Under the pieces are notes generated by a model. That model made no database searches. It was not told the DNA's origin and saw only the letters and a list, made by a program, of their open reading frames with translations. From positions 1-64,000 of the forward strand of contig NZ_JAGDYM010000013.1 of NCBI RefSeq assembly GCF_017565745.1: DNA of 64,000 bases, written 5' to 3'. Source of the stretch: Leucobacter weissii. Lineage in GTDB: Bacteria > Actinomycetota > Actinomycetes > Actinomycetales > Microbacteriaceae. Shown here in pieces: positions 20,111 to 63,220 of the stretch (positions within the stretch are counted from its first letter, which is position 1; each line of letters begins with the position of its first letter). The position numbers and the translations under genes were made by a program.

Positions 20111-23100
20111 ATGACGGTCTCGATGCGCGTGATGAGCGCGGGCGACGGTTACAAGTACCTGCTGCGTACGGTCGTCGCCGGGGACGGCGACAGGTCGCTC
20201 TCGACCCCGCTGACCCGCTACTACTCGGAGGCGGGCACGCCGCCGGGCCAGTGGCTCGGCGCTGGCATCGCGGCGCTCGGCGGGATGATCGCGGAGGGCG
20301 ATCAGGTCACCGAAGCACAGCTCGAACTCCTCCTCGGCCTCGGCAGGCACCCCGTCACGGGCGCACCGCTCGGGAAGGCGTATCCGGCTTACAAGACCGT
20401 CGCCGAACGGATCGCGGAGCGCGTGGCCGCCCTCGATCCCGAGCTCGGGCCGGCCAGCCGTGCGGAGGCGACCGCCGCAATCAAGGCCGAGGAGACTGCG
20501 CGCGGGGTGCGCCGGGCGGTTGCGGGCTACGACTTCACCTTCTCCATCCCGAAGTCCGCCTCGGTGCTCTGGGCGGTTGCGGACGCGGGGACGCAGGCGC
20601 TTATCGCGGACGCGCATCATGCGGCGGTTGCGGAGGTGGTTGCGTTCATGGAACGGGAGGTTGCAGCGACCCGCACCGGCGCAACCGGGCGCGACGGGGC
20701 GGTTGCACAAGTCGATGTTCGCGGCCTGGTCGCCACCGCGTTCGATCACTACGACAGCCGGGCGGGCGACCCGCACCTGCATACCCATGTCGTCATCTCC
20801 AACAAGGTGCAGACCGTCCTCGACGGCAAGTGGCGCTCCCTCGACGGCCGACCCATGCACGCCGCGACGGTCGCGCTCTCGGAACTGCACGAGGCCGTCT
20901 TCGCAGACCACCTGACCCGGATGCTCGGAGTCGAGTGGGAGGCCCGGGAGCAGGGGCGGGACCGGAACCCGGCGTGGGCGGTCGCGTCGGTGCCGGAGGA
21001 GCTGGTCAAGGAGTTCTCCACCCGTGCCCGGCACATCGACGCCGAGACGGATCGCCTCATCGACCGCTACGTCTCCGAACACGGCAGGCGCCCGTCGCCA
21101 GCGACGATCATGAAGCTCCGCGCCCAGGCCACTCTCTCCACCCGCCCGGAGAAGGAAGTCCATTCGCTCGCGGACCTCACCGCATCCTGGCGGCAAAGGG
21201 CCGGCCAGATCCTCGGCTCAGACCCGACCTCGTGGGCGCGGGCCGTGACGGTGAACGAGGCACCTCTGCTGCTGCGCGCCGACGACATCCCGCTGGATGT
21301 GATCACCAACTTGGGCGGGAGGGTTGTCGAGGCGGTCGGCGAGAAGCGCTCCACCTGGCGGCGGTGGAACCTGATGGCCGAGGCCGCGAGGCAGACCACC
21401 GGCTACAGGTTCTCCTCCACGGAAGATCGGGAGGCCGTCGTCGGCCTCGTGGTCGACGCCGCCGAGGCCGCCTCGCTGCGACTGACGCCGCCCGAGCTCG
21501 CATCGAGCCCGGCGGCGTTCCAGCGGCCGGACGGCACCTCGGTGTTCCGGCCGAAGCACTCGGCGGTGTTCTCCTCGGAGATGCTGCTGGCGGCCGAAGA
21601 CCGCCTCCTCGACCGCGCCCGCACCACGACCGGGCCGACCGTGCCCCTGGTCACCGTGGAGCGGATCGCCCGCCGACCCGACCGGCACGGCCGCAACCTC
21701 GGCCCAGACCAAGCGGACGCGCTGGCGAAGATCGCCCTCTCCGGCCGACTCATCGACGTCCTCGTGGGTCCCGCCGGGGCCGGGAAGACGACCGCGATGA
21801 ACGCCCTACGGCGGGCATGGGAGCACGAGCACGGACACGGCAGCGTGGTCGGACTCGCGCCGTCCGCGGTCGCCGCGCAGGTCCTTGCCGATGACCTCGG
21901 GATCGCCACGGAGAACACGGCGAAGTGGTGGCAGAACCACATCATGTACGGCAAGACATTCCGCAAGGGCCAGCTCGTCATCATCGACGAGGCATCCCTG
22001 GCCGGCACCGTCTCCCTCGACCGCATCACCGCCCTCGCCGTCGAAGCCGGGGCGAAGACGCTGCTCGTCGGGGACTACGCCCAGCTCCAGTCGCCGACCG
22101 CCTCCGGCGCCTACGCGATGCTCGTCCACGACCGCGACGACGCCCCCGAGCTGGTCGACATCCACCGATTCAGAAGCCCGTGGGAGAAGACCGCCTCCCT
22201 CGGCCTGCGACACGGGGACACGACGGTCATCGACGCCTACGCGACGCACGAGCGCATCACCGAGGGCGACACGGAGGCGATGATCGAGGCCGCCTACGCC
22301 GCCTGGCGCACCGACATGCTCGGCGGGAAGTCGAGCGTTCTGGTCGCGGACTCGAATGAGTCCGTGCTGGCGCTGAACGAGCGTGCCCGTGCCGAGTTGA
22401 TCCTGGACGGCACCGTGAATGCCCGCCGCGAGGTCGAGCTGCACAACGGCCAGCGCGCCGCGGCCGGCGATACCGTCATCACCCGCCACAACGACCGCCG
22501 CCTCCGAGCCGGCCGCGGCTGGGTCCGCAACGGCAACAGGTGGACGGTCACCGAGGTCCGCGACGACGGCTCCCTCACCCTCCGCGGAGTCGGCCAGCGA
22601 TGGGGCGGCTCGGTCGTGATCCCCGCCGACTACGCGGCAGAGCATGTCGAGCTCGGCTACGCGATCACCTCCTACCGGACACAGGGCGTCACGGTCGACA
22701 CCGCCCACGTCCTCGCTGACGCGACGACCACCAGGGAGAACTTCTACGTCGCCATGACCCGCGGCGCCGAGAGCAACCGCGCCTATCTCGCCGTCGACCG
22801 GCCCGACGCCGCGCACAACGGCCCCCGGAGCCAGGCGACCGGCCGCAGCGTCATGGCCGCGATCCTCCAGCACGCCGGCGCCGAGCTCTCCGCCCACGAG
22901 ACCATCACGGCAGAGCAAGACGCCTGGGGCTCGATCGCCCAGCTCGCGGCCGAGTACGAGACCCTGGCCGCCGCCGCACAACACGACCGTTGGACCGCAC
23001 TCATCCGCTCCTCCGGGCTCAGCGAAGACGACGCAGACGACGCGATCGCCTCGCCCGCATTCGGAGCGTTGACCGCCGAGCTGCGGCGGGCCGAGGCGAA

Positions 23101-23653
23101 CCAGCACGACGTCGAGACCCTGCTACCGCGCCTCGTGCGAGCACGCGGGTTCGGGGACGCCGACGACATCGCCGCGGTCCTGCATTACCGCGTCGCTAAG
23201 GCGACGACGCGGCCATCAGGGTCTGGTCGCACGCGGAAGGCGCCACGCTTGATCGCCGGCCTCATCCCCGAAGCCACTGGCACCGTGCCGTCCGAGATGC
23301 GGCAGGCGCTGACCGAGCGACGCGACCTCATCGAGGCCCGCGCCAATGCTCTCCTCGACACCGCGCTCACCGAGAAGCACGAGTGGATCATGAAGCTCGG
23401 CGTCCAGCCGAAGCAGGCACGAGCGGCCCAGGCATGGCGGAACGCCGCTCGCACCGTCGCTGCCTACCGCGACCGCTACGGCGTCACCGGGCCTGCACCC
23501 CTCGGAGCACCCGCCGAGGCCGAGACGCAGAAGCTCGACGTCGCCCGCGCCGGTGCTGCGCTCGACCGGGCGCAGAACCTCGCCCGGGGCGAACAGCCGG
23601 AACACGAGCGCCCCCGCAAGGCACGGGCGCAGTGGGTCGGGCCGTCACGATGA
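20111..23653 (+). CDS. MobF-family conjugative relaxase with helicase domain
   Basis: A 1180-residue relaxase-helicase of the MobF/TrwC type, which nicks plasmid or element DNA at oriT and unwinds it during conjugation. N-terminal tyrosines YY lie near residues 37-38 and the metal-binding triad reads HLHTH at about 221-225. The helicase half has a Walker A VGPAGAGKTTAM at about 552-563, a Walker B VIIDEAS near 625, and a C-terminal UvrD-like segment (GYAITSYRTQGVTVD). ATG 20111 follows GGAGGGA; the frame extension from 20051 runs through a hairpin. No other transfer genes lie nearby, so the element may be mobilizable or its transfer genes lie elsewhere. Confidence 0.92.
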   Translation: MTVSMRVMSAGDGYKYLLRTVVAGDGDRSLSTPLTRYYSEAGTPPGQWLGAGIAALGGMIAEGDQVTEAQLELLLGLGRHPVTGAPLGKAYPAYKTVAERIAERVAALDPELGPASRAEATAAIKAEETARGVRRAVAGYDFTFSIPKSASVLWAVADAGTQALIADAHHAAVAEVVAFMEREVAATRTGATGRDGAVAQVDVRGLVATAFDHYDSRAGDPHLHTHVVISNKVQTVLDGKWRSLDGRPMHAATVALSELHEAVFADHLTRMLGVEWEAREQGRDRNPAWAVASVPEELVKEFSTRARHIDAETDRLIDRYVSEHGRRPSPATIMKLRAQATLSTRPEKEVHSLADLTASWRQRAGQILGSDPTSWARAVTVNEAPLLLRADDIPLDVITNLGGRVVEAVGEKRSTWRRWNLMAEAARQTTGYRFSSTEDREAVVGLVVDAAEAASLRLTPPELASSPAAFQRPDGTSVFRPKHSAVFSSEMLLAAEDRLLDRARTTTGPTVPLVTVERIARRPDRHGRNLGPDQADALAKIALSGRLIDVLVGPAGAGKTTAMNALRRAWEHEHGHGSVVGLAPSAVAAQVLADDLGIATENTAKWWQNHIMYGKTFRKGQLVIIDEASLAGTVSLDRITALAVEAGAKTLLVGDYAQLQSPTASGAYAMLVHDRDDAPELVDIHRFRSPWEKTASLGLRHGDTTVIDAYATHERITEGDTEAMIEAAYAAWRTDMLGGKSSVLVADSNESVLALNERARAELILDGTVNARREVELHNGQRAAAGDTVITRHNDRRLRAGRGWVRNGNRWTVTEVRDDGSLTLRGVGQRWGGSVVIPADYAAEHVELGYAITSYRTQGVTVDTAHVLADATTTRENFYVAMTRGAESNRAYLAVDRPDAAHNGPRSQATGRSVMAAILQHAGAELSAHETITAEQDAWGSIAQLAAEYETLAAAAQHDRWTALIRSSGLSEDDADDAIASPAFGALTAELRRAEANQHDVETLLPRLVRARGFGDADDIAAVLHYRVAKATTRPSGSGRTRKAPRLIAGLIPEATGTVPSEMRQALTERRDLIEARANALLDTALTEKHEWIMKLGVQPKQARAAQAWRNAARTVAAYRDRYGVTGPAPLGAPAEAETQKLDVARAGAALDRAQNLARGEQPEHERPRKARAQWVGPSR

Positions 23654-51874: not shown

Positions 51875-51960
51875 GCGCGGGTGGCGGAATTGGCAGACGC
51901 GCTAGCTTGAGGTGCTAGTGCCCGTATTAGGGCGTGGGGGTTCAAGTCCCCCCTCGCGCA
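51875..51960 (+). tRNA. tRNA-Leu (GAG anticodon)
   Basis: An 86-nt class II tRNA with a long variable arm. The acceptor stem GCGCGGG (51875-51881) pairs with CTCGCGC (51953-51959), discriminator A51960. The anticodon stem is CTAGC/GCTAG with loop TTGAGGT, giving anticodon GAG (51909-51911). TTCAAGT marks the T-loop region. No CCA is encoded. The 3' part is the attachment site used by the 11-kb element: its last 20 bases recur at 63147-63165, followed by the original downstream DNA. Confidence 0.95.
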
Positions 51961-51962
51961 CG
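51940..51962. repeat. Attachment site left (attL core), 23-bp direct repeat
   Basis: The 23 bases from 51940 (the end of the tRNA T arm and acceptor, GTTCAAGTCC to GCGCACG) are identical to 63145-63167. One copy completes the tRNA-Leu gene and the other lies at the far end of the element. This is the hallmark of tyrosine-integrase insertion into a tRNA gene. Confidence 0.92.
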
Positions 51963-52022
51963 AATGGAAAATGGCCTCTGACCTGGGGTTTAGATCACCA
52001 GGTTGGGGGTCATTTTCGTGCC

Positions 52023-52043
52023 ATGTGCTGAGATATGTGCTAA
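52023..52043. repeat. Left arm-type integrase site pair
   Basis: ATGTGCTGA (52023-52031) and ATGTGCTAA (52035-52043), with starts 12 bp apart. The second copy overlaps the integrase stop codon. The same nonamer pair with the same 12-bp period appears at the other end of the element (63007-63027). Confidence 0.6.
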
Positions 52044-53323
52044 GCGTTCCCGAGATGGGCCGCGAAGCGGTCTGCTGCGGCTTTCTGCATCGTCGGGGTG
52101 ACATGGCTGTAGATGTTCATCGTGGTGGTGATGGTGGAGTGCCCGAGGCGCTCTTGCACCACCTTGGGATGCTCGCCCAACTCCAACAGGAGTGTGGCGT
52201 GCGTGTGGCGCAGCCCCTTGATCGTGACCCTGGGGAGCGTCTTGTGTACCGTGGCGGTCCACTTCATGCGGCGATCCCACCGGCTCGTCATGGCGTCGGG
52301 CGAGCGGAGCTTGCCCTCGTCGTCACCGAAGACGTAGGCGTCGGCTTTGGCGAGGTCGAACGACACTTCGGCACGTGCGACCTTGTAGGAGGCGAGCACT
52401 TTGAGGGTCGCGGCGTCCACGTCGATCACGCGGGCGTTGCCCGTCTTCGTGGTCTTGGTGGTCGTCCAGTCCTCCGTGTTCACCGCCCGCCGGATGCTCA
52501 CCCGCCCGGTTCTGGCGTTCACGTCGTTCCACTTCAACGCCAGCGCCTCGCTGCGCCGCATCCCCGTGTAGGCGATGAGTCGCCACAGCGGGAACAGCTC
52601 GTCTTTCAACTCGTCACGGTTCCAAGCGAGGAACGTGGCGAGCTGGTCGCCCGTCCACGTCACGATTTCCGGTTTCTGTGCGCGTACCTGCGAGGACTTG
52701 GGCGCGTTCACCGTGCGCTTCTTCTTCGCCGGGTTCACACTCAGCAGTCCGTCGTCTATCGCTGCGTCGAGCATCGCTCCGAGGACAACATGCACCTTGT
52801 GGATGCTGTTGGCCGACAACGGTTGCCCCTTGCCGTATTCGTCCTTGCGACCTGATTGTTCCAACTGGCGGTAGTGCGCGCCGATGCGGGTGGCGGTGAG
52901 CTTGTCGATCCTGATCTTCCCGAGGTCGGGCGTGATGTGGTTGCGGATGATCTTCCGGTACCCCTTGATCGTGGAATCAGCCAACCGCAGCGACGACGCC
53001 CAATCCTCGGCATACACCGCGATGGTCGGGGTTTTGCCTTGGAACTTCTCGTTCCGTGCCCGCTTCTTGAGCGCTTCGGTGAGCGCGGCCTGTGCTTCTT
53101 CGAGGTCGGTGAACCCGCCACGGGTCAACCGCTTCTCGCCCAGCTCGGGCTTCTCGGGGTCGATGAGCACATAGATCTGGAACTTCCACCGCTTCCCCTT
53201 ACGGGTCTGATAGTCGCCCAGCGAACCCGCGTGCCGCGACCTCGAACGCCGCTGCTGTCTCTGTGTCACCCCCTCAGCGGGGTCTGCCACCACACTCGGC
53301 GGCGGGTCGTTGACTTGTGCCAT
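52040..53323 (-). CDS. Tyrosine recombinase/integrase
   Basis: A 427-residue phage-type integrase. The N-terminal arm-binding domain covers about residues 30-85, a core-binding SAM-like domain lies at about 95-200 (TIAVYAEDWASSLRLADSTI), and the catalytic domain holds Arg in YTGMRRSEALAL, KGLRHTHATLLLE and the Tyr nucleophile in LGHSTITTTMNIYSHV. In the usual HxxR motif the first His is Lys (KGLR), a known tolerated variation. The start at 53323 follows AAGGAG with eight bases spacing; the longer frame is rejected. It ends next to attL, 78 bases from the core repeat. It inserts and, with an excisionase, excises the element. Confidence 0.92.
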   Translation of the reverse strand: MAQVNDPPPSVVADPAEGVTQRQQRRSRSRHAGSLGDYQTRKGKRWKFQIYVLIDPEKPELGEKRLTRGGFTDLEEAQAALTEALKKRARNEKFQGKTPTIAVYAEDWASSLRLADSTIKGYRKIIRNHITPDLGKIRIDKLTATRIGAHYRQLEQSGRKDEYGKGQPLSANSIHKVHVVLGAMLDAAIDDGLLSVNPAKKKRTVNAPKSSQVRAQKPEIVTWTGDQLATFLAWNRDELKDELFPLWRLIAYTGMRRSEALALKWNDVNARTGRVSIRRAVNTEDWTTTKTTKTGNARVIDVDAATLKVLASYKVARAEVSFDLAKADAYVFGDDEGKLRSPDAMTSRWDRRMKWTATVHKTLPRVTIKGLRHTHATLLLELGEHPKVVQERLGHSTITTTMNIYSHVTPTMQKAAADRFAAHLGNA

Positions 53324-53390
53324 AGCCCGGCTCCTTTTTCTCCTTGGGTTCACCCGCACCCCTGCGACACGGGTAGCTCTGCGACCCGGC

Positions 53391-53951
53391 TTACTCGAAT
53401 GTGAGGGAAGCGTTCGGGTCGATCTGCAACAGCCTGCCGGTGGCCTCGGCTTCGCGTGCGGTCTGCCGGTCGTAGCGCTGCTGGTACACCTCGCGCGGGG
53501 TGACACCAACCTGGCCACGGTCGTACTTGGCGAGCATTTCCTCAGCCCAGTGCCCGGAACTGATCGCCAGGAACCGCTGCTCTTTCCAGTAGCGCACGAG
53601 GTCGTCGGTGGTGAGCTTCACGCTGCCTGCGACCCAGGCCTGTATCTCTTCGGGAATGAACAACTCCGGCACCCCCGTGAGCGTCACGGCCTCTGCGGGC
53701 GGGGTGAGCAACGCGGCGGGGGTGGTGCGGAAGATATAGGCGAGGGCGGTGAGGTCATCCACGTCCACGCGCCGGTCGCCGTTCTCGATCTTGCTGATCC
53801 CCGACGGGGCGAGCTTCCGGCCCGCCTCGGTCATGAGGCGGGCGGCGGTGCGCACGTCCATGCCGATGGCCTGGCGCGCGGTGCGGATGTTCTGGGCGAC
53901 GTGCTCGTGGGTGATGCCAGCGGGATTCCCCCGCACTCTCTCTGTTTCCAT
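53391..53951 (-). CDS. XRE family transcriptional regulator of the element
   Basis: A 186-residue protein with an N-terminal XRE-type HTH at about residues 18-75 (ARQAIGMDVRTAARLMTEAG, then SGISKIENGDRRVDVDDL). A C-terminal helical part (ELFIPEEIQAWVAGSVKLT) may bind a partner or dimerise. ATG 53951 is chosen because the frame to 54323 would read across the divergent promoter region. It is divergent from the excisionase-like gene, with a perfect palindrome between them, and probably acts as the repressor that keeps the element integrated. Confidence 0.83.
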   Translation of the reverse strand: METERVRGNPAGITHEHVAQNIRTARQAIGMDVRTAARLMTEAGRKLAPSGISKIENGDRRVDVDDLTALAYIFRTTPAALLTPPAEAVTLTGVPELFIPEEIQAWVAGSVKLTTDDLVRYWKEQRFLAISSGHWAEEMLAKYDRGQVGVTPREVYQQRYDRQTAREAEATGRLLQIDPNASLTFE

Positions 53952-53973
53952 ACTAGGAACGTATATGCCGACT

Positions 53974-53987
53974 CTTGACTCGTCAAG
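53974..53987. promoter_or_regulatory. Palindrome over the XRE gene promoter
   Basis: CTTGAC (53974-53979), TC, GTCAAG (53982-53987): a perfect 6-bp inverted repeat. On the minus strand it contains TTGACG, a good -35 hexamer for the XRE gene, with TATACG-like sequence about 17 bases downstream. This suggests autoregulation. Confidence 0.55.
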
Positions 53988-54011
53988 TTCCATGATGTAC
54001 TTTATTGGGAT

Positions 54012-54033
54012 CATATGAATCTTGTTTAGGAAC
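54012..54033 (+). promoter_or_regulatory. Shared bipartite promoter motif (copy 1, upstream of the excisionase-like gene)
   Basis: CATATG (54012-54017), six bases, GTTTAGGAAC (54024-54033), ending 12 bases before the ATG of the excisionase-like gene. The same two blocks with the same 6-base gap and orientation precede the relaxase gene (58799-58820, minus strand), which points to common control of excision and transfer. Confidence 0.6.
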
Positions 54034-54045
54034 GGCTGGTGTGTG

Positions 54046-54264
54046 ATGAGATCGGTGACGGTGACCCTGGATGATCTGCGGGCCTCGCGCAGCGCGGTCG
54101 TAACACGCGCGGAGGCAGCAGCGGCACTCGGCGTTGATCCGCGCACGATCACCGCGAGCATCGAGAACGGGGCTATCCCCTCCGTGAGACTCGGCCGTCG
54201 GGTCGTGATCCCGCGCGAGAAGTTCCTGCGCCTCTTCGACGCCGACGACACCCCCACGACGTAA
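54046..54264 (+). CDS. Excisionase-like helix-turn-helix protein
   Basis: A 72-residue protein of the excisionase/MerR-like HTH_17 type, with VTRAEAAAALGVDPRTITASIENG followed by the wing IPSVRLGRRVVIPREKFLRLF. Proteins of this kind bend DNA at att sites to favour excision or act as small regulators. The ATG at 54046 is used; a TTG at 54022 lies within the bipartite promoter motif. It is divergent from the XRE regulator, an arrangement like a lysogeny switch. Confidence 0.8.
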   Translation: MRSVTVTLDDLRASRSAVVTRAEAAAALGVDPRTITASIENGAIPSVRLGRRVVIPREKFLRLFDADDTPTT

Positions 54265-54334
54265 AACTCTGCGGCGGTGCCGAATCGGCACACCCGCGCT
54301 ATCTGAGTATTCACCCCGCCCACTCGACAAGGTA

Positions 54335-54347
54335 ACTTGCGGCAAGT
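54335..54347. promoter_or_regulatory. Palindromic operator candidate of the toxin/antitoxin-like pair
   Basis: ACTTGC (54335-54340), G, GCAAGT (54342-54347): perfect 6-bp arms centred 18 bases before the ATG of the first gene. A related half-site AACTTG follows directly. The antitoxin-like protein downstream has an HTH and could bind here. Confidence 0.5.
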
Positions 54348-54358
54348 AAACTTGTGAC

Positions 54359-54592
54359 ATGGAATCAGACCCGCTCATCCTTGACAGTGCCCACCGGCAC
54401 GGCGTCACGGATGCGGCGATGCTCCATGCGCTCCGTTACCCAGTCCGGCACTTCGTGCAAGACGACGCGATGACCATGTTCATCGGCCCCGACGAGACCG
54501 GAACCCTGGTCGAAGTCGGAGTCATCGAATGGCACGGCATCATCGCTATCGCTCACGCGATGCGTCCGGCCCGATCCAAGTATTTGAGGTGA
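54359..54592 (+). CDS. Toxin-like small protein of a toxin/antitoxin-type pair
   Basis: A 77-residue protein of an actinobacterial family that resembles BrnT/RelE-like small toxins: compact alpha/beta pattern, conserved HGVTDAAMLHALRYP and a final HAMRPARSKYLR. It is followed after five bases by an HTH-containing small protein, the usual layout of type II systems with toxin first. The assignment rests on size, context and the pattern HGVTDEAM...HAMPARPKFL seen in related proteins. It may help maintain the element. Confidence 0.55.
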   Translation: MESDPLILDSAHRHGVTDAAMLHALRYPVRHFVQDDAMTMFIGPDETGTLVEVGVIEWHGIIAIAHAMRPARSKYLR

Positions 54593-54597
54593 ACATC

Positions 54598-54867
54598 ATG
54601 GCTCCACGCTCTATCGAAGACATCAAGGCACGCGCCGACGAGTTCGCGGACGCGTTCGAGAACTACGACCCCAAGCCCGGCGACGCCGACGCTCCGCTGC
54701 CCCCAGTCATGGCGGTCAAGCTCGCCGCCTGGCGGCGCGACTCCGCAGAACGAGAACTCGCCGAAGCGGTACGCACCGCACGCGAACAGCGGCTCTCCTG
54801 GCGCGAGGTCGGTGAAGCGATCGGCACCAGCGGCGAAGCCGCCCGCCAACGCTACGCCAGCGCCTAA
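54598..54867 (+). CDS. Antitoxin-like HTH protein
   Basis: An 89-residue acidic protein with a C-terminal HTH (LSWREVGEAIGTSGEAARQRYA) and an N-terminal helical part likely to wrap the toxin. TGAGGTG at 54585-54591 precedes ATG 54598, with the upstream gene stop in between. It probably neutralises the upstream protein and represses the shared promoter at the palindrome 54335-54347. I cannot name the family with confidence. Confidence 0.55.
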   Translation: MAPRSIEDIKARADEFADAFENYDPKPGDADAPLPPVMAVKLAAWRRDSAERELAEAVRTAREQRLSWREVGEAIGTSGEAARQRYASA

Positions 54868-54876
54868 GCTCTGCTC

Positions 54877-55314
54877 GTGGGGCGATGGGAGCCGGGTGGC
54901 GGCATTGTCGAGTTACCCGATGGTCGCCGCGTTCGAGGTCGCGGGCTTCGCGCGGCGCGCCATGACACCCTCGATCCTGAGTTCGGGGTCTATCTGACGG
55001 GTCGCGCTCCCCGTGTCGGAGATTGGCCGCACCAATGGGTGCGATGGCGTGACTTCCGACGACCGGACGGGACCCCGGAGACAGTCGCGGCGCTTCGTGA
55101 AGCGTATGAGCGAGCCGCCACGGAGCGAGTCGAGATTGCCTGCGGTGGGGGTATCGGGCGCACGGGAACCGCATTAGCCGTGCTTGCGGTGATGAGCGGT
55201 GTTCCCGCGAGCGATGCCGTTGCCTGGGTGCGAGCGCACTACCACCCGCACGCGGTAGAGACTCGCGGGCAACGACGCTGGGTGAGCGAAGTCGCAGCCG
55301 CCCTCATCGACTGA
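54877..55314 (+). CDS. Protein-tyrosine-phosphatase-like protein
   Basis: A 145-residue protein with the CX5R phosphatase loop CGGGIGRTG at about residues 88-96, preceded by a Trp-rich segment DWPHQWVRWRDF and followed by a helix with the end HYHPHAVETRGQRRWV. This matches a compact family annotated as protein-tyrosine phosphatase in actinobacteria. The catalytic Cys and Arg are present; the general-acid Asp could be the Asp in WRDF. The GTG at 54877 lies nine bases after the antitoxin-like stop. Its target in the element is unknown. Confidence 0.72.
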   Translation: MGRWEPGGGIVELPDGRRVRGRGLRAARHDTLDPEFGVYLTGRAPRVGDWPHQWVRWRDFRRPDGTPETVAALREAYERAATERVEIACGGGIGRTGTALAVLAVMSGVPASDAVAWVRAHYHPHAVETRGQRRWVSEVAAALID

Positions 55315-55330
55315 CGCGAACGGCGTCGGC

Positions 55331-58300
55331 TCACAGGCCGCGCGCCGGGCCGCTCTGCGGGGGCGTGTGGCGGTACCCGTAGTCGTAGCGGCTGGCGCGC
55401 TCCTGCGCCGCCCGTCGGGCTTCTTCGCGGGCGGCTTCGGCGGCTCGGGTCTGCCCGATCCGCGCGACCGCCTCGGCGGGCGTGAGCGAGCGCAGTAGCT
55501 CGGCCTCTGCGCGTGCGTACTTCGCCGTCTGAGCGGCGCTGGTGGCGCGCTGTGCGGGGTTGGTGCTCAGGTAGGCGTCGCGGTTGCGGAGGACGCGCTC
55601 TGCGCCGAAGACGCGACCGAACGCCGCCAAGCGTGCGGTCTGTGCCCGCTCGGGCCTGCTCAGGACTTCATCACGCGCCGCCCCGTGTGCTTGCTCTGCT
55701 TGGATCAGGCGCGGGTCGGTGTTGATCTTCGGGCGGGTGACTCGCTCTACCCAGGCATCGGGGCGTTCGTTCCACCTCGGCGGCTCGCCCCACTCGTTCG
55801 CCAACTGCTGGCGCACGTCATAGGTTCGCGCCTTGGCGCTATCCTGCTCGTCGCGGGCGCGCCGCCTACCGAACCACGACGCGGCCCGCATTTGCTCGCC
55901 TGCCATCTGCTCGGCGGCTTCGGCCTGCTGCCATTCGGCAAGTGCCGTCCTCGCCGCCGAGACGATGGGCGCAGTGACCTCGACGCGCACCTGCTCGGCG
56001 CGCGACCTCGCCTGCCGCTCAGTCTTGCTTGCCGCTTCGCGTATCGCTGTCTCGCGCTGGTTCAGGTCAGCAAGAGCAGCGCCGATCTGCTGCCAGCGTT
56101 CGGCCTGCGCCTCAGCAGTCACCGCCCGTTGCATGAGCGCGGCTATCTCGTCGCTCACGAACTGCGCCGGGCCGTGCTCGATGAGCCCGGCGACTTCCTC
56201 GGCCGCGCGACGGGTCGCGTCGGCAAGGCCACGGTCGGCCCGGTCGCGTTCCATCGCCGCCACGAACTGCACTCGCGCTTGATCCAAGTCCTCGGCCACG
56301 ACATGCAACAGATTCGACTCGCGGCCTCTCGTCATGCCGACATAGACGCTCGCGGCGCTGGTCGAGCCCGTGAGGATCGTGTGCGAGGCGGGCACGGTCG
56401 CGCCCTGCACCCCGTAAGAAGTCGCCGCGTACGACAGATGGGCGTGCTCGGCCACATACTCGGCAGGCAGGCGCACGGTGCGCGGTCGCTTCCGCCCGCT
56501 CCCTGCTTCCCTTGCGGTGACGGTGCCGTCGTCTGCGACATGCTGCACGATCCACTGCTGCCGGTTCGCCACCCCCAAGCGGGTGTTGTTCTTGCGGGTT
56601 TGGATCAGGTCGCCCGCGCCGATGGGGAGGCCATCGTTCCCGTAAGCAGTGCTGCGGTCGTCGACCTCGCCGCGTGCCACGCGCTTGTCGCGAATACTCG
56701 AGTTCACGGCGCGCGCCTCGTCGTTCGAGGTCCCCGTCACAGCTTCGTCGTTCTGCCGCTCCTGGGCGATGTGCTCTCTCAACTCATCGCCGCCCGTATG
56801 GAGGCGCACAAGCCCAAGTTCTGCGAGCTGGTCGAAGACCGCGCCGGGATTCCTGCCGTCGCGCATCTGCAACGTGACCTCGGCATAGGCGGGATCGGCG
56901 AAACGGTGAACTTCGGCCATGTCGAACGTGCGCCCTCTGAGCTGCGCGGCCATGTCGAGCACCCCGCCGCGCCCGACGGCTGCGAGCTGCGCACGATCCC
57001 CAACCAGCGCGACCGTCGCACCTGCCTCGGCGCAGACGGTCAGCAGGGCGATTGCGGTGTCTTGGTCGAGCATCCCCGCCTCGTCAACGATGACCCGCTC
57101 GCCGTGTGCGAGCCGCGCGCTTTCGGATGGGCCGCGATAGGCGTTGCCGGTCTCGGGGTCAGTGTCGCCCGGCGCGAGGCGCGACCATACGCCGTCACGA
57201 TTCCACCGCCACCCGTGCGCATGCACGAGCGCCGCAACGCTCGCAGTCGGCACCCCGAGTTCGTCGCGCGCCACCAGTGCGGCACGCTTCGTCGGCGCAA
57301 CCACCCGCGACGGCCTACCCTGCTCGGCCGCGACTTCGATTACAACGCCGAGCATCGTTGTCTTCCCTGCGCCCGCTGCTCCCTCAACGATCACCAACGG
57401 GTCGGCGGATGCGACGGCAGCGGCGGCGCGCTCCTGCCCCGCATCAAGACCCCGCGCCTCGGCCGCTGCGCGCACGTCAGCGGGTTTCGGCTCGCGGTCT
57501 GGCACTCGTGCGGCGATCAGGTCGCGCAGTTCCGTCTCGGCCTGCACCACGCGCAGGCTCGTGAGGTGCGCCACATGCTCCGGCGTCGGCGCACCTGGCG
57601 CGAGTACCGAGAAGCAGTCTTCGAGCGCGAGGCGTGTTGCAGCGGTGATGAGGTCGCGCAACTCTTGGCTGGTTGCGCGCACCCCGGCCTCGGTGATGAT
57701 CTGGGTTGCATGCTCCTGCACCGTATGGCGATTCCACGCCGATGCGCCAGCCGCGCAACGATCCAAGGCGCGCGAGGCGATCCGCTGCACCGATAGCTCG
57801 TCCGGCGACGCCGGCACAGGGCGTGCAGGCCGGCGCAGCGTTGCGGGGTCGTAGCCGGCTTCTCGGAGTTCGGTCAGCCAGGCTTCCTCTTCCCTGAGCG
57901 TGGTCGGCTTCTTCGCGGGCCGTTCGTGCGCCCATGCCTGCGCCGTGAGCCGCGAGAATACGACCGGCCCCATCGTCTCACCAGGGTGCGCCGCGTTCCA
58001 TTCGGCTTCGAGCCGGTTCAGGTTCCGATGCACCTGCTCACCCCGCTTGCTCATCAAGGCGTTGAACGGCTCCAACTCGACTACCTCGCCGGTAACGGGG
58101 TCGAGCGTGAGGCCGTGACGATCCAGCACCTCAGCAAGCTCCGGGTGCGCGGCGATGACCGCCGTGCCGAGAGCACGGATCGCGCCTTGCTGCTTGATGA
58201 GCGCCCCGGTATCGAGTGCGCGCCACTTCCCGACAGCCCACACCCTGGTGCCGATCTGCATGTGAATGTGCCGGTGCGGGTCACCAGCGCGCGACGTGCG

Positions 58301-58780
58301 GTGCGTAATCCCGACGACCTGCATGTACTCGACCGGCACGACCTCTTGCTTGCCGCGCCCGCCGACGCGAGTCACGGAGTGCTGGCCGAGCCACCGCTGA
58401 ATCTCCGCCAGCGCGTCCTGCTGCGCACGATCCAACGCCTCAGACACGTCAGGGTGGAGGGCTGCTGCGATAGAGAGTGACTTCGGGCCGTTGATCGTCA
58501 TTTCACCAAACCGCGCCGAACCCTGACGATCAGGGCCAGCCGCGCGGGGTCGCCCCATCCGCTCGCCCGTGTCGGGGTTGATCCAATCCACCCACCCGTT
58601 GTACTCCTCGCTACTCAGGTCACGGGCACTGACCGTCTCGCCTGTGGCGTCGAGCACCGCGTACTGGATGCCGCTGGTGCCGTCGCTGCGGTAGTAGTCG
58701 TCAGCACGCAGGCGGTCGGCCTCGACATAGCGCAGCGCATCAGCCCCGGTTCCCCGGAAGAAGACCACACCGCCATGCAT
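55331..58780 (-). CDS. MobF-family relaxase with helicase domain (element copy)
   Basis: A 1149-residue relaxase-helicase, distinct from the one at 20111. The metal-binding histidines are HRHIH at residues 169-173 (after AGDPH). The helicase half has Walker A VEGAAGAGKTTMLG, Walker B RVIVDEAGMLD, and the UvrD-like end LSYAATSYGVQGATV. The C-terminal 250 residues are charged and coiled-coil-like. ATG 58780 is chosen since AGGAGG sits nine bases before it; GTG 58789 touches the Shine-Dalgarno. The two relaxases share layout but little sequence in their starts, so they come from different mobile lineages. It would nick the element's oriT for mobilisation. Confidence 0.92.
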   Translation of the reverse strand: MHGGVVFFRGTGADALRYVEADRLRADDYYRSDGTSGIQYAVLDATGETVSARDLSSEEYNGWVDWINPDTGERMGRPRAAGPDRQGSARFGEMTINGPKSLSIAAALHPDVSEALDRAQQDALAEIQRWLGQHSVTRVGGRGKQEVVPVEYMQVVGITHRTSRAGDPHRHIHMQIGTRVWAVGKWRALDTGALIKQQGAIRALGTAVIAAHPELAEVLDRHGLTLDPVTGEVVELEPFNALMSKRGEQVHRNLNRLEAEWNAAHPGETMGPVVFSRLTAQAWAHERPAKKPTTLREEEAWLTELREAGYDPATLRRPARPVPASPDELSVQRIASRALDRCAAGASAWNRHTVQEHATQIITEAGVRATSQELRDLITAATRLALEDCFSVLAPGAPTPEHVAHLTSLRVVQAETELRDLIAARVPDREPKPADVRAAAEARGLDAGQERAAAAVASADPLVIVEGAAGAGKTTMLGVVIEVAAEQGRPSRVVAPTKRAALVARDELGVPTASVAALVHAHGWRWNRDGVWSRLAPGDTDPETGNAYRGPSESARLAHGERVIVDEAGMLDQDTAIALLTVCAEAGATVALVGDRAQLAAVGRGGVLDMAAQLRGRTFDMAEVHRFADPAYAEVTLQMRDGRNPGAVFDQLAELGLVRLHTGGDELREHIAQERQNDEAVTGTSNDEARAVNSSIRDKRVARGEVDDRSTAYGNDGLPIGAGDLIQTRKNNTRLGVANRQQWIVQHVADDGTVTAREAGSGRKRPRTVRLPAEYVAEHAHLSYAATSYGVQGATVPASHTILTGSTSAASVYVGMTRGRESNLLHVVAEDLDQARVQFVAAMERDRADRGLADATRRAAEEVAGLIEHGPAQFVSDEIAALMQRAVTAEAQAERWQQIGAALADLNQRETAIREAASKTERQARSRAEQVRVEVTAPIVSAARTALAEWQQAEAAEQMAGEQMRAASWFGRRRARDEQDSAKARTYDVRQQLANEWGEPPRWNERPDAWVERVTRPKINTDPRLIQAEQAHGAARDEVLSRPERAQTARLAAFGRVFGAERVLRNRDAYLSTNPAQRATSAAQTAKYARAEAELLRSLTPAEAVARIGQTRAAEAAREEARRAAQERASRYDYGYRHTPPQSGPARGL

Positions 58781-58798
58781 CGCGCTCACCCTCCTTAT

Positions 58799-58820
58799 GT
58801 TCCTAAACTAGCAACATATG
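58799..58820 (-). promoter_or_regulatory. Shared bipartite promoter motif (copy 2, upstream of the relaxase)
   Basis: Reading on the minus strand: CATATG (58820-58815), six bases, GTTTAGGAAC (58808-58799), just before AGGAGG and the relaxase start. Identical in sequence and spacing to the motif upstream of the excisionase-like gene (54012-54033). Confidence 0.6.
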
Positions 58821-58998
58821 TATCTACTACGGTAGTGTACGTTCATTCAGAAGTCAGCAGAGCGATCTTAGAATCGCACTGTGCGACACGGAAGGTTCGC
58901 GTAAGTCGGTGACGGCTTCTGAGCCGCGAGTGAACACTGCGTGAATGCAGCGCGGCGAGTAGCGCCAGTCCCGGATGGTGCCCCATTCTGAGTAAGAA

Positions 58999-60213
58999 AT
59001 GTTATCCGCAGAAGGTGGCCGTCGAACCGACTTTGGCGCGCCATTGCTGGTCCTTCTGGTGTTCTTGAGGTTAGGGTGCACGTCGTTCGGTGGCCCGGTC
59101 GCTCATCTTGGATATTTTCGAGCAGAGTTCGTCGAGCGACGCAGATGGCTGGGTGATCGCGCGTATGCGGATCTTGTCGCATTGTGCCAGTTTCTTCCCG
59201 GCCCGGCATCAAGCCAGGTCGGCATGGCGATCGGTTTGCAGAGAGCTGGAATACTCGGTCTTGTCGCGGCATGGCTCGGGTTCACACTGCCATCTGCGGT
59301 ATTGCTGTTCGGGTTCGCGCTCGGCGTATCGACCCTTGGCGACGTATCGCAGGCTGGATGGGTGCTGGGCCTGAAGGCTGCGGCGGTCGCGGTCGTGGGT
59401 CATGCTGTGCTCGGGATGGCAAAGTCACTCACGCCTGATGCGCGACGAGCGACGATTGCTGTCGGGGTGCTCACTGTCGTGCTGCTCGTACCCGGCCCGC
59501 TGACGATGTTCGGCGCGATGGCCTTGGCCGGGATCGCGGGGTTCTTCGTCTGTCGATCCCCGAGCACGACCGAGAACGATGAACCGCGTTTCCGGGTGCG
59601 CCTGCGGCCCGCAGTCGGATGGTTGAGCCTGGCTGTGTTCGTCATGCTGCTCGCAGGGTTGCCGATTTTTGCTGTGTTCACCGGCAACGCCACGGTAGGC
59701 CTGATTGACACCTTCTATCGTGCGGGGTCGTTCGTGTTCGGCGGCGGGCATGTCGTGCTCCCGCTTTTGCAGGCTGAGACAGTGCAGACTGGACTGGTGG
59801 AGCCGGGTGCGTTCCTCGCGGGGTATGGTGCCGCGCAGGCGGTGCCAGGGCCGCTGTTCACCTTCGCCGCGTTTCTCGGAGCGGTCACCACGGGCGGCCC
59901 GAGTGGGCTGCTCGGCGCATCCATTGCGCTGCTCGCGATCTTTCTGCCGTCTGCGCTGCTCGTGATGGGGGTGCTGCCCTTCTGGGAGCGGTTGCGTCGT
60001 GCGCCGAGAGTGCAGCGTGTGCTGACGGGCGTGAACTCCGGAGTCGTCGGGCTGCTCGCCGCCGCGCTGTACGACCCCGTATTCACCGCGGGTGTCACGA
60101 ACGCCGCATCACTCGTCGTCGCGGCACTCGCGTTTGTCGCACTCACGTCCTGGAAAACACCGGCATGGGCGGTAGTGCTCGGGGCCGCAGGAGCCGGGGC
60201 ATTGCTGCTCTGA
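58999..60213 (+). CDS. chrA: Chromate transporter (CHR family)
   Basis: A 404-residue chromate efflux protein made of two homologous halves. Each carries the family motif: GGPVAHLGYFRAEFV and later CQFLPGPASSQVGMAIG in the first, and FGGGHVVLPLL with GYGAAQAVPGPLFTFAAFLG in the second. About ten hydrophobic helices are expected. It is divergent from the relaxase, with an AT-rich region of 218 bases containing ACTACGGTAGT (58826-58836) between them. It exports chromate from the cytoplasm, known for the family. No separate chrB regulator is adjacent. Confidence 0.9.
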   Translation: MLSAEGGRRTDFGAPLLVLLVFLRLGCTSFGGPVAHLGYFRAEFVERRRWLGDRAYADLVALCQFLPGPASSQVGMAIGLQRAGILGLVAAWLGFTLPSAVLLFGFALGVSTLGDVSQAGWVLGLKAAAVAVVGHAVLGMAKSLTPDARRATIAVGVLTVVLLVPGPLTMFGAMALAGIAGFFVCRSPSTTENDEPRFRVRLRPAVGWLSLAVFVMLLAGLPIFAVFTGNATVGLIDTFYRAGSFVFGGGHVVLPLLQAETVQTGLVEPGAFLAGYGAAQAVPGPLFTFAAFLGAVTTGGPSGLLGASIALLAIFLPSALLVMGVLPFWERLRRAPRVQRVLTGVNSGVVGLLAAALYDPVFTAGVTNAASLVVAALAFVALTSWKTPAWAVVLGAAGAGALLL

Positions 60214-60285
60214 ACGCGCTACGCGGATACTCAGGCGAGGCTGGCCTGCAATGCGAGAAGCGTGCCTGCCTGGGAGGATTGAAGC

Positions 60286-62244
60286 ATGAGCCGTTTTTCA
60301 TCTCTGGTCAGGGCATATCCACTCGTGATCGCAACACTGTTGGTGGCTATGATCGGGTTGGTTCTTTTAGCGACTCCGGCCATTGAGTCGGCCAGCTGGA
60401 TTGTGGGTGCGTATGCGCTCGTGATTGCCGGGTGGGAGGCGGTCGGGATGATCCGGCAGCTCATCCGAGGGCACGCCGGGCTCGACATTCTTGCGGTGAC
60501 GGCAATCACCGCTGCAGTGCTCGTTGGGGAGCCGTGGGCGGCGCTCGTGGTGGTGCTGATGCTCACCGGCGGGGCGGCCCTCGAAGATTACGCTGAGAAC
60601 CGTTCGAAGCGGGAACTGACCGCGCTGCTGCGTAAGGCACCCCAGCAGGCCACGCGAATCCTCGCCCCAAGCGCACCCGGCGCGGACATGCACGGGCATA
60701 CTGCCGAGGTCACGACCGAGGACATACCGGTCGAAGAAGTCGAGGTGGGTGATCTGTTGTTGGTGCGGCCGGGTGCACTCGTGCCTGTGGACTCGATCCT
60801 CGTCTCCGAGCACGCCGTGTTCGATGAGTCGTCATTGACCGGTGAAAGTCTGCCCGTTGAGCGTGACGCGGGAGAGAAAGTGTCGAGCGGTGCGGTGAAT
60901 GGACAAGCCGCAGTCACCATGCGGGCTGCGGCTCCGGCCGCCGAGAGCGAGTATCAGCAGATTGTTCGGCTCGTCGAACAAGCCGCGGGGAGCAAAGCCA
61001 AAGTCGTGCGGCTCGCAGATCGGTACGCGGTGCCGTTCACAGTGCTCGCGCTCGTGATCGCCGGGATCGCGTGGGCGGTCAGTGGAGAGGCTGTCCGGTT
61101 TGCCGAGGTGCTGGTGGTGGCGACCCCATGCCCGCTGCTGATCGCCGCGCCGGTCGCGTTTCTCGGTGGCATGAGCCGTGCCGCGAGGTTCGGGCTGATC
61201 GTCAAGGGCGGCGGCACCCTCGAACAGCTTTCACGAGCCCGCTCGGCGGCATTCGATAAGACCGGCACCATCACTACCGGCAAGCCAGTGCTCGAACGCC
61301 TTCTGCCCGCCGACCGCGCCAGCGAAGACGAGCTGCTGCGTTTCGCAGCCTCAGCGGAGGTGTACTCCTCTCACGTGCTTGCGGACTCCGTCGTGCAGGC
61401 CGCGAAACAGCACGGCTTGTCGCTCGTCGAAGCCGAACATGCCGAGGAGATCGCGACAAACGGAGTCGCGGCTGTGTTCCGCACTCCTGACGCACCTGAG
61501 GCAGTGACGGTTCGTGTCGGCAAGCCCTCCTGGGTGCGCCACTCCGCGCCGGACCTCGTGCTGGCAGACCTTGCTCCAGGGGAACTCGCAATCTACGTCT
61601 CAGTCGATGGCCGTTTCGCCGGAGCCATCGTCATGCGCGACCAAGTGCGCGAAGAAGCAGCCCAGGCTCTCCGTCAGCTGAGCGCACTCGGTATCGAGCG
61701 TACGCTCATGGTCACCGGAGACGTTGCAGCCACCGCCGAACCCATCGCGCGGCGCCTTGGAATCAGCGAGGTGCACGCGGAGTGCCGCCCCGGCGACAAA
61801 GTTCGCATTGTCAGTAGCGTGCAGCCCCGCCCGCTCATCATGGTCGGTGACGGCCTCAACGATGCCCCGGTGCTCGCTGCTGCGGATATTGGCTTCGCAA
61901 TGGGGGCGCGCGGTGCAACCGCAGCATCGGAGTCTGCGGACATCGTGAACCGCTACGACACGCTCTCGGCCCTGCCGCGCGCGGTGAGCATCGGCAAGGA
62001 CACCGTGCGGATCGCACTGCAAAGCATCTGGCTCGGCATCATCATCAGCGTCGGCCTCATGCTCATCGCCGCCTTCGGGTTCCTCCCAGCACTCCTCGGC
62101 GCGTGGCTGCAAGAAGTCGTTGACCTGGTGGCCATCCTCGGCGCACTCCGTGCAGTCGGCCCACGATCTGAGCGAATCACACGATCATCACCAGTCGCAT
62201 CGACGGAACAACTTCACTTCAGCACGACCCAAGACAGGAAATGA
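60286..62244 (+). CDS. P1B-type metal ATPase with TPC and QExxD motifs (P1B-5-like)
   Basis: A 652-residue heavy-metal P-type ATPase lacking N-terminal metal-binding domains. The actuator motif is LTGESLPV, the phosphorylation motif DKTGTIT has Asp324, and the hinge is VGDGLNDAPVL. In the membrane, the fourth-helix motif reads TPCP at about 280-283 and the sixth helix contains QEVVD at 609-613. TPC together with QExxD defines the P1B-5 group, linked to nickel and iron export; this is known for the family and inferred here. The usual HP dipeptide of the nucleotide domain reads SH. It overlaps the VIT gene, suggesting joint handling of Fe or Ni. Confidence 0.88.
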   Translation: MSRFSSLVRAYPLVIATLLVAMIGLVLLATPAIESASWIVGAYALVIAGWEAVGMIRQLIRGHAGLDILAVTAITAAVLVGEPWAALVVVLMLTGGAALEDYAENRSKRELTALLRKAPQQATRILAPSAPGADMHGHTAEVTTEDIPVEEVEVGDLLLVRPGALVPVDSILVSEHAVFDESSLTGESLPVERDAGEKVSSGAVNGQAAVTMRAAAPAAESEYQQIVRLVEQAAGSKAKVVRLADRYAVPFTVLALVIAGIAWAVSGEAVRFAEVLVVATPCPLLIAAPVAFLGGMSRAARFGLIVKGGGTLEQLSRARSAAFDKTGTITTGKPVLERLLPADRASEDELLRFAASAEVYSSHVLADSVVQAAKQHGLSLVEAEHAEEIATNGVAAVFRTPDAPEAVTVRVGKPSWVRHSAPDLVLADLAPGELAIYVSVDGRFAGAIVMRDQVREEAAQALRQLSALGIERTLMVTGDVAATAEPIARRLGISEVHAECRPGDKVRIVSSVQPRPLIMVGDGLNDAPVLAAADIGFAMGARGATAASESADIVNRYDTLSALPRAVSIGKDTVRIALQSIWLGIIISVGLMLIAAFGFLPALLGAWLQEVVDLVAILGALRAVGPRSERITRSSPVASTEQLHFSTTQDRK

Positions 62245-62249
62245 ACAAT

Positions 62250-62978
62250 ATGGCATCCGACTCAAGCACCACGCCGCATCCCGGCGAAGCCCACCTGCAG
62301 AACGTGGGCCAACGTTTGAACTGGCTACGTGCAGGGGTGCTCGGCGCAAACGACGGCATCGTCTCTACCGCGGGTGTCGTCGTCGGTGTCGCTGCCGCTA
62401 CACCAAACAACGTACTGGCAATCGCGACGGCCGGTATCGCCGCCGTAGTTGCCGGGGCGTTCTCAATGGCTGGCGGAGAGTATGTTTCGGTGAGCACCCA
62501 ACGCGACACAGAGAAAGCGCTCATCGCAAAAGAACGGTGGGAGCTCGAAACCATGCCCGAGGAGGAGCTTGAAGAACTCACCGAGCTCTATCGACAGCGG
62601 GGCCTCTCAGATGACCTCGCACATCAGGTCGCGGTGCAGCTTACCGAGACGGACGCTCTCGCCGCTCACGCAGAGGTCGAACTCGGAATCGACCATGAAG
62701 AGTTCACAAGCCCGTGGGCAGCCGCCGTGTCATCGTTCATTGCGTTCGCCGTTGGAGCGCTGATCCCACTCATCATGATCTTGCTCCCCGTCGGCGGACA
62801 CCGAGTTTGGATCGCAGCCATCGCAGTTGTGATCGGCCTCTTCCTCACCGGTTGGATCAGCGCTGCGCTCGGTGGCGCGCCGCGCGGTCGCGCAATTCTC
62901 CGGAACGTGGTCATGGGCTCAGCGACCATGATCGCCACATACGCCATTGGGGCACTCTTTGGCGTGGCCATCGGATAG
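62250..62978 (+). CDS. VIT1/CCC1 family iron/manganese transporter
   Basis: A 242-residue membrane protein of the VIT1/CCC1 family. The first helices have LRAGVLGANDGIVSTAGVVVGVAA and the second block AGAFSMAGGEYVSVSTQRD, with the acidic cytoplasmic metal-binding helix EELEELTELYRQRG and later helices near the C-terminus. I prefer ATG 62250, nine bases after AGGAA; an ATG at 62241 overlaps the ATPase stop but leaves no spacing. Family members export Fe2+ or Mn2+ from the cytoplasm. The coupling to the ATPase suggests a two-step metal-detoxification unit. Confidence 0.88.
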   Translation: MASDSSTTPHPGEAHLQNVGQRLNWLRAGVLGANDGIVSTAGVVVGVAAATPNNVLAIATAGIAAVVAGAFSMAGGEYVSVSTQRDTEKALIAKERWELETMPEEELEELTELYRQRGLSDDLAHQVAVQLTETDALAAHAEVELGIDHEEFTSPWAAAVSSFIAFAVGALIPLIMILLPVGGHRVWIAAIAVVIGLFLTGWISAALGGAPRGRAILRNVVMGSATMIATYAIGALFGVAIG

Positions 62979-63006
62979 GCCGCTTCTCGTGATCCGGCCC
63001 GCTTTC

Positions 63007-63027
63007 ATGTGCTAACTCATGTGCTAC
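63007..63027. repeat. Right arm-type integrase site pair
   Basis: ATGTGCTAA (63007-63015) and ATGTGCTAC (63019-63027), 12 bp apart, mirroring the pair beside attL. In the excised circle the two pairs would flank the attP core, as expected of arm-binding sites for the integrase N-terminal domain. Confidence 0.6.
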
Positions 63028-63058
63028 CGACGCTGCTAGGTTGTGAATCGCGGTGCAG

Positions 63059-63067
63059 TTATCCACA
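63059..63067 (+). other. DnaA-box-like sequence in the right end of the element
   Basis: TTATCCACA at 63059-63067 matches the consensus DnaA box exactly. It lies between the arm sites and attR, within a region containing the inverted repeats GTGAATCG (63043-63050)/CGATTCAC (63109-63116) and CACGA-TT-TCGTG (63114-63125). A single box is weak evidence for replication. Confidence 0.35.
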
Positions 63068-63144
63068 GGTGGGCCTCGCAGAAACCGCGGAATCATGCGG
63101 CAGAACGCCGATTCACGATTTCGTGTGCGAGGGGGAACGGATCA

Positions 63145-63167
63145 GTTCAAGTCCCCCCTCGCGCACG
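63145..63167. repeat. Attachment site right (attR core), 23-bp direct repeat
   Basis: Exact copy of 51940-51962. It represents the original end of tRNA-Leu displaced by the insertion. It no longer belongs to a complete tRNA. Confidence 0.92.
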
Positions 63168-63179
63168 CGAATGAAATGG

Positions 63180-63220
63180 CCCCTGACCTGGGATTTTATA
63201 TCTCAGGTCAGGGGCCGTTC
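63180..63220 (+). terminator. Displaced tRNA-Leu terminator
   Basis: Just after attR, GGCCCCTGACCT (from 63178) and AGGTCAGGGGCC form a perfect 12-bp stem around an AT-rich loop, followed by GTT. The sequence beside attL (51971 onwards, TGGCCTCTGACCTGGGG...CCAGG) is a similar but poorer hairpin brought in by the element. The strong one is probably the native terminator of the tRNA, now 11 kb away. Confidence 0.6.

Follow-up and report, generated by a model that had tools for sequence, protein, structure and literature searches.

Near the right end of a 64,000-nucleotide stretch of Leucobacter weissii contig NZ_JAGDYM010000013.1 (the window) lies an 11.2-kb element that occupies positions 51940-63167, at the 3' end of a tRNA-Leu(GAG) gene. 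It carries an integrase, attachment (att) repeats at both ends and a relaxase of its own, and no mating-pair formation or coupling genes were found among the 10 open reading frames (ORFs) scanned; from these features, it is very probably an integrative mobilizable element (IME). Its integration site, arm sites and a conserved motif resembling an origin of transfer (oriT) can be read from the DNA, and comparison with related elements shows cargo that is shared between diverged backbones, with a break at the motif. The arm repeats, the oriT-like motif and the cargo exchange go beyond the description given in a first-pass annotation of this DNA.

The tRNA gene (51875-51961, plus strand; Rfam tRNA, 52.1 bits) is preserved intact by the left-hand copy of an exact 23-bp repeat. 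A repeat search found two copies in the window, attL at 51940-51962 and attR at 63145-63167 (both plus strand), and none on the other strand of the window. When the downstream DNA was shuffled 200 times under a first-order Markov model, its longest exact tRNA match never exceeded 13 bp (mean 10.0), whereas the real downstream DNA contains a 22-bp exact match within the tRNA; the repeat is far beyond chance. The first-pass annotation had reported this copy of the tRNA 3' end and had held that both ends can be defined to the base, and its coordinates proved right. Similarity between the two repeat regions extends to 52 bp at 85%, because the left end of the element and the chromosome right of attR each carry what reads as a terminator-like inverted repeat after the tRNA end (51968-52016 and 63172-63214, respectively). 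With such a repeat at both places, the element would therefore bring its own tRNA terminator. The Rfam scan returned nothing besides the tRNA.

Next to attL, a tyrosine integrase is encoded at 52040-53323 on the minus strand (Phage_integrase, 69.9 bits; part searched, 52040-53281), followed by an XRE-like regulator (53391-53951, minus; HTH_3 21.6, under the cut-off of 23) and an excisionase-like (Xis-like) HTH_17 protein (54046-54264, plus; HTH_17 34.7, NCBIfam excise 33.4 against a cut-off of 28.8). The starts of these three genes were chosen from sequence in this analysis. The mobF gene (55331-58789, minus) has an open frame for a MobF (TrwC-type) relaxase-helicase of 1152 aa (TrwC 140.5; NCBIfam MobF 124.3 against a cut-off of 100), whose TrwC domain is accompanied by a helicase and the histidine motif, as in MOBF relaxases. 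Profile matches thus bear out the integrase, excisionase-like gene and MobF relaxase named in the first-pass annotation, but its XRE regulator stays below threshold. Between xis and mobF are two small ORFs without family, of 77 aa (54359-54592, plus) and 89 aa (54598-54867, plus), each with a 90% identical relative at locus L027, and a tyrosine-phosphatase-like protein assigned by a family match (54877-55314, plus). The cargo beyond mobF encodes, all on the plus strand, a ChrA-type chromate transporter (58999-60213; Chromate_transp 237.9), a heavy-metal P-type ATPase of type IB (60286-62244; E1-E2_ATPase 144.1) and a VIT1/CCC1-family transporter (62241-62978; VIT1 232.5), three families that together suggest a metal-export set.

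No secretion or coupling-protein family of Pfam or NCBIfam matched the 10 ORFs scanned, in agreement with the earlier statement that the element lacks secretion genes. Among the same ORFs we found neither a transfer apparatus, as in an integrative and conjugative element (ICE), nor an FtsK/TraB-type DNA translocase, by which actinomycete ICEs (AICEs) are defined in the account of PMC3218068. The host genome contains five TraG/D-type coupling domains, which could belong to helpers.

The element family and its attachment sites

An integrase-based genome scan kept 80 loci, 49 of them with a resolved integrase end. A tRNA gene lies within 900 bp of the integrase in 40 of these 49 (32 tRNA-Leu with anticodon GAG, CAG or TAG, and 8 tRNA-Ser(GGA)) and is lacking in 9. 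In 29 of the 40 tRNA-adjacent loci, 80-83 bp separate the tRNA from the last integrase residue of the match, and 9 of the 40 have 21-25-bp repeats at both ends, the other far ends falling mostly beyond the stretch compared.

An arm-type repeat pair with a spacing of 12 lies on the integrase side at 52023-52041, and the same motif with the same spacing recurs on the cargo side at 63007-63025 (the P arm); within the window this pair is present only at the two element ends. Across the family, the integrase-side pair is 80 bp from the core in 17/17 ends and the cargo-side pair 119 bp from it in 17/19, with distances of 118 and 108 bp in the other two. Three arm motif classes, defined after inspection of the arm sequences, could be distinguished, and 10 of 11 two-ended elements carry the same class at both ends, one being ambiguous.

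A helicase gene left of the tRNA was found in 54/54 Leucobacter genomes searched. Among 30 helicase loci compared, the stretch includes tRNA-Leu(GAG) in 23, the window among them, and no tRNA-Leu in 7. In 21 of the 22 other loci of Leucobacter, the 520-1311 bp that follow the tRNA contain no relative of the integrase (E 1e-5; other integrases were not sought); the remaining locus, with 77 bp downstream of the tRNA, is uninformative. Among the 23 loci, an integrase relative beside tRNA-Leu(GAG) occurs only at the window's own locus. The first-pass annotation had called for comparison with related genomes at this site, and the outcome favours its claim of a complete mobilizable element: 21 informative loci are without such an integrase, the arm repeats are paired, and relatives sit at tRNA-Leu and tRNA-Ser. 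In another genome (G075), a tRNA-Leu(GAG) is the site of a different element of the family (L148), and the same helicase gene lies about 0.7 kb away. That genome also holds L147 and L149, which have near-identical oriT regions and lie at tRNA-Leu(CAG) and tRNA-Leu(TAG), in addition to the third, different element at GAG.

A conserved oriT-like motif upstream of mobF

The oriT-like motif (58824-58848, minus strand) lies 35 bp upstream of mobF. It is present with at most 3 mismatches in 26/26 integrase-selected loci that include the mobF start region, the copy in the window being the most diverged. This analysis was made on integrase-selected loci since conservation over all 37 sites, among them sites picked by the motif, is partly circular. 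A conserved site beside the relaxase gene is the arrangement of a MOBF oriT. Motif information is 1.94 bits at offsets 0 to 4, 1.15 at -5 to -1 and 0.56 at -10 to -6, and falls to 0.24 at -20 to -11, the background level being 0.26. The putative nick site would lie between 58843 and 58844, with an uncertain range of 58837-58858. Most sites contain a CTACC..GGTAG inverted repeat, which is imperfect in the window.

Searched as a DNA pattern, the motif occurs in 10/54 Leucobacter genomes (3 mismatches), in 16/366 genomes of the genus to which G091 belongs, taken to be Microbacterium (2 mismatches), and in 2/57 of that to which G209 belongs, taken to be Brevibacterium. It was also found in 4/396 genomes of the order and 8/398 of the family, where the family-level search yielded one new distinct site (L209), most others being loci already known; at 2 mismatches the pattern misses the window's own site. 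The exact pattern was absent from viral_contigs (0 stretches). Members of the element family occur in Leucobacter, Microbacterium, Brevibacterium and other Actinomycetes. Our search of the literature found no published description of this IME family, which is not proof of absence.

Two candidates for the motif's origin or for a second copy were rejected. One was that the oriT came from the three PLSDB plasmids carrying the best MobF relatives (60.7%); the two of them that were compared, L201 and L202, lack the motif at 7 mismatches. A MobF on contig C1 of the same genome (61% identical) was considered as a second copy of the element; in 19.9 kb of that contig there is neither a core nor a tRNA nor an integrase relative, and the motif is missing at up to 7 mismatches. 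By eye, the DNA upstream of these distant MobF genes (two plasmids and contig C1) contains a similar short core beside a different inverted repeat. A further, distant MobF relaxase lies in the window itself at 20531-23140 (plus strand; 30-32% identity, 1243-aa frame) and probably belongs to another mobile element. A MobF (61%) accompanied by a variant of the oriT-like motif is found at L144 and L146 next to another integrase (27%), near tRNA-Glu(CTC); this kind of relaxase module is thus also combined with a second integration module.

Tandem repeats end at the motif in three loci: six 13-bp units with TTCTGAATG in L059, which is the same element as L034, two 14-bp units in L145 and two 34-bp units in L037. 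The units repeat the nick-side end of the motif and may have been left by recurrent events at the nick site.

Cargo shared between diverged backbones

The segment 58838-63144, comprising the cargo and the P arm, matches the corresponding block of three elements at 99.3-99.8% identity, while the relaxase genes of these three share only about 75% identity with that of the window. Over the 4307 columns of this interval, the window shows 8 differences from L014, 32 from L017 and 32 from L013, 25 of the last in a patch beside the core. Past 58838 toward mobF, identity falls abruptly, to about 70-85% in stretches of 150 columns. This cargo (99-100%) is found on three relaxase backbones (71-77% DNA identity), the third being that of L016/L160. 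A second cargo is common to L028 and L029 (99.9%, mobF 76%), and in the converse case, L159 and L161, mobF is 98% identical and the cargo is unrelated. In the family, unrelated cargo starts at the motif edge; cargo-side DNA beside the motif is common to 12 of 666 pairs among 37 distinct sites. These comparisons indicate at least four exchanges with a break at the motif. The break is limited on the right by motif offset 11; on the left, L030 and L159 still agree as far as about offset -9, apart from one difference at -1.

The P arm travels with the cargo in recent swaps: its identity is 99-100% among the window, L014, L160 and L163, and 87% between L159 and L161. Over all 136 pairs, P arm and mobF identities show a positive rank correlation of 0.78, as expected from shared ancestry, and therefore only the recent swaps support a P arm that follows the cargo. 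A supposed break inside mobF between L034 and L059 was discarded; both sides are 97-99% identical and the middle differs in length, as in an indel or replacement within one element. Ten cargo proteins sampled from seven other elements gave matches to an alcohol dehydrogenase, an MFS transporter, a Clp_N protein with a polyketide cyclase, a response regulator, a PF00144 serine hydrolase, CtaG, two P-type ATPases and an RND pump; one had no match. Elements can share a cell: three motif sites are present in G075 and two in G487.

Proposed exchange from nic to att

We propose that the integrase and the Xis-like protein would recombine the 22-23-bp core at the tRNA-Leu end through the arm sites at each end. 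After excision, the MobF relaxase would cut one strand of the circle at the motif that precedes mobF, and the conjugation machinery of a helper would move the DNA; if the nicked strand has the hairpin 5' of the nick, the cargo would be the first DNA to enter the recipient. Cargo and P arm would then be exchanged as one unit, from the nick site (nic) to att, through relaxase action on co-resident elements, either by transfer that starts at one element's oriT and ends at its neighbour's or by relaxase-driven oriT-oriT recombination, each of which would join the cargo to another backbone. An IME of this kind, together with such an exchange, is likely to be the best overall explanation; exchange of cargo by this relaxase mechanism, taken by itself, we put slightly short of an even chance.

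A related known case is R388, whose TrwC, according to PMC3264647, recombines tandem oriTs without conjugation, and for which one target may be 17 bp, 14+3 around the nick. The Leucobacter element shares with it a TrwC-family relaxase and a matching histidine motif, and the 14+3 asymmetry resembles that of the motif here, which is strongly conserved toward mobF and over only about 5 bp toward the cargo. Unlike in R388, the sequence is a different one, the host is actinobacterial, and the nick site and recombination are predictions. As in the hybrid ICEs of SXT/R391 described in PMC2786100, elements at one site exchange cargo and give hybrids; those hybrids depend largely on recA or element-encoded recombinases, whereas the break here is at an oriT-like motif.

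Several points weigh against the proposed exchange. The break is bounded only to about 20 nt, that of L159/L161 may lie just outside the motif, and four events are few. Mosaicism occurs elsewhere too: around 54.3-56.2 kb, the window and L014 carry unrelated DNA, and L160/L016 and L153 have mobF genes about 90-91% identical but different P-arm classes and unrelated cargo, which suggests that another module boundary lies between relaxase and integrase. The P arm of L013 is different in about 42 bp next to the core. Two intact oriTs in tandem were not found among the loci compared; the sole tandem, L145, abuts a remnant that contains a piece of an integrase but lacks the motif at up to 6 mismatches. 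The hairpin in the window is no better than those of shuffled sequences (156/200 shuffles did equally well or better, z +0.78). According to PMC3264647, the TraI of F does not recombine oriTs, and oriT recombination need therefore not be a general property of relaxases. Excision, nicking, the strand nicked, helper use and the exchange mechanism are, moreover, steps that we infer.

The strongest alternative is ordinary homologous recombination, or gene conversion independent of conjugation, in which breaks would look fixed since chimeric relaxases fail and are lost; we rate it as a serious contender, somewhat under even. It would account for the mosaicism away from oriT in the window/L014 and L160/L153 comparisons, it is in keeping with SXT/R391 tandem arrays, where, according to PMC2786100, most hybrids need recA or element-encoded recombinases, and the P arms share similarity able to serve as the outer end of a homologous exchange. 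Yet the exact tracts at the motif in the pairs tested measure 13, 13, 27 and 20 nt, and tracts at least as long inside mobF (27, 16, 2 and 9 such tracts in the respective pairs, up to 39 nt long) were not used as breaks. Alternatively, no special exchange would have occurred, oriT and P arm being kept by need while the DNA between them is freely replaced by unrelated insertions. The mostly unrelated cargo of the family, shared by so few pairs, fits such turnover, but the occurrence of an entire 4.3-kb block, P arm included, at 99-100% identity on three diverged backbones calls for recent whole-block transfer and makes this account improbable. That the element is a decayed, immobile island, as its want of a transfer apparatus and a mobility predicted from sequence might suggest, is very improbable given open integrase and relaxase frames, intact att cores and arm pairs at both ends, and near-identical cargo in other genera.

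Like the canonical IMEs of a 2017 review (PMC5704250), the element combines a site-specific integrase, a relaxase, no type IV secretion system, a tRNA target and tandem remnants within its family. The canonical IMEs known to that review have MobP, MobQ, MobV or MobC relaxases, and none has MobF or MobH, whereas the present family encodes MobF. The ActinoRUSTI ICE of Glutamicibacter is likewise actinobacterial and located at tRNA-Leu, and its excision and circle were proven by PCR; at about 59 kb and conjugative, it is unlike the much smaller element here, a comparison made by its description in PMC5526665. A MobF relaxase and a conserved oriT thus appear as new aspects of an IME, and would add MobF to the relaxases of a class for which that review listed it as lacking. 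We tentatively picture these IMEs, with nearly even confidence, as two site-specific halves, a backbone from int to mobF and a leading-region cassette of cargo and P arm, bounded by nic and att and reassorted in one step. If true, small mobilizable elements of Actinomycetes would change cargo site-specifically in a single step while keeping backbone and att function, and the oriT nick site would be predictable from the breaks in cargo.

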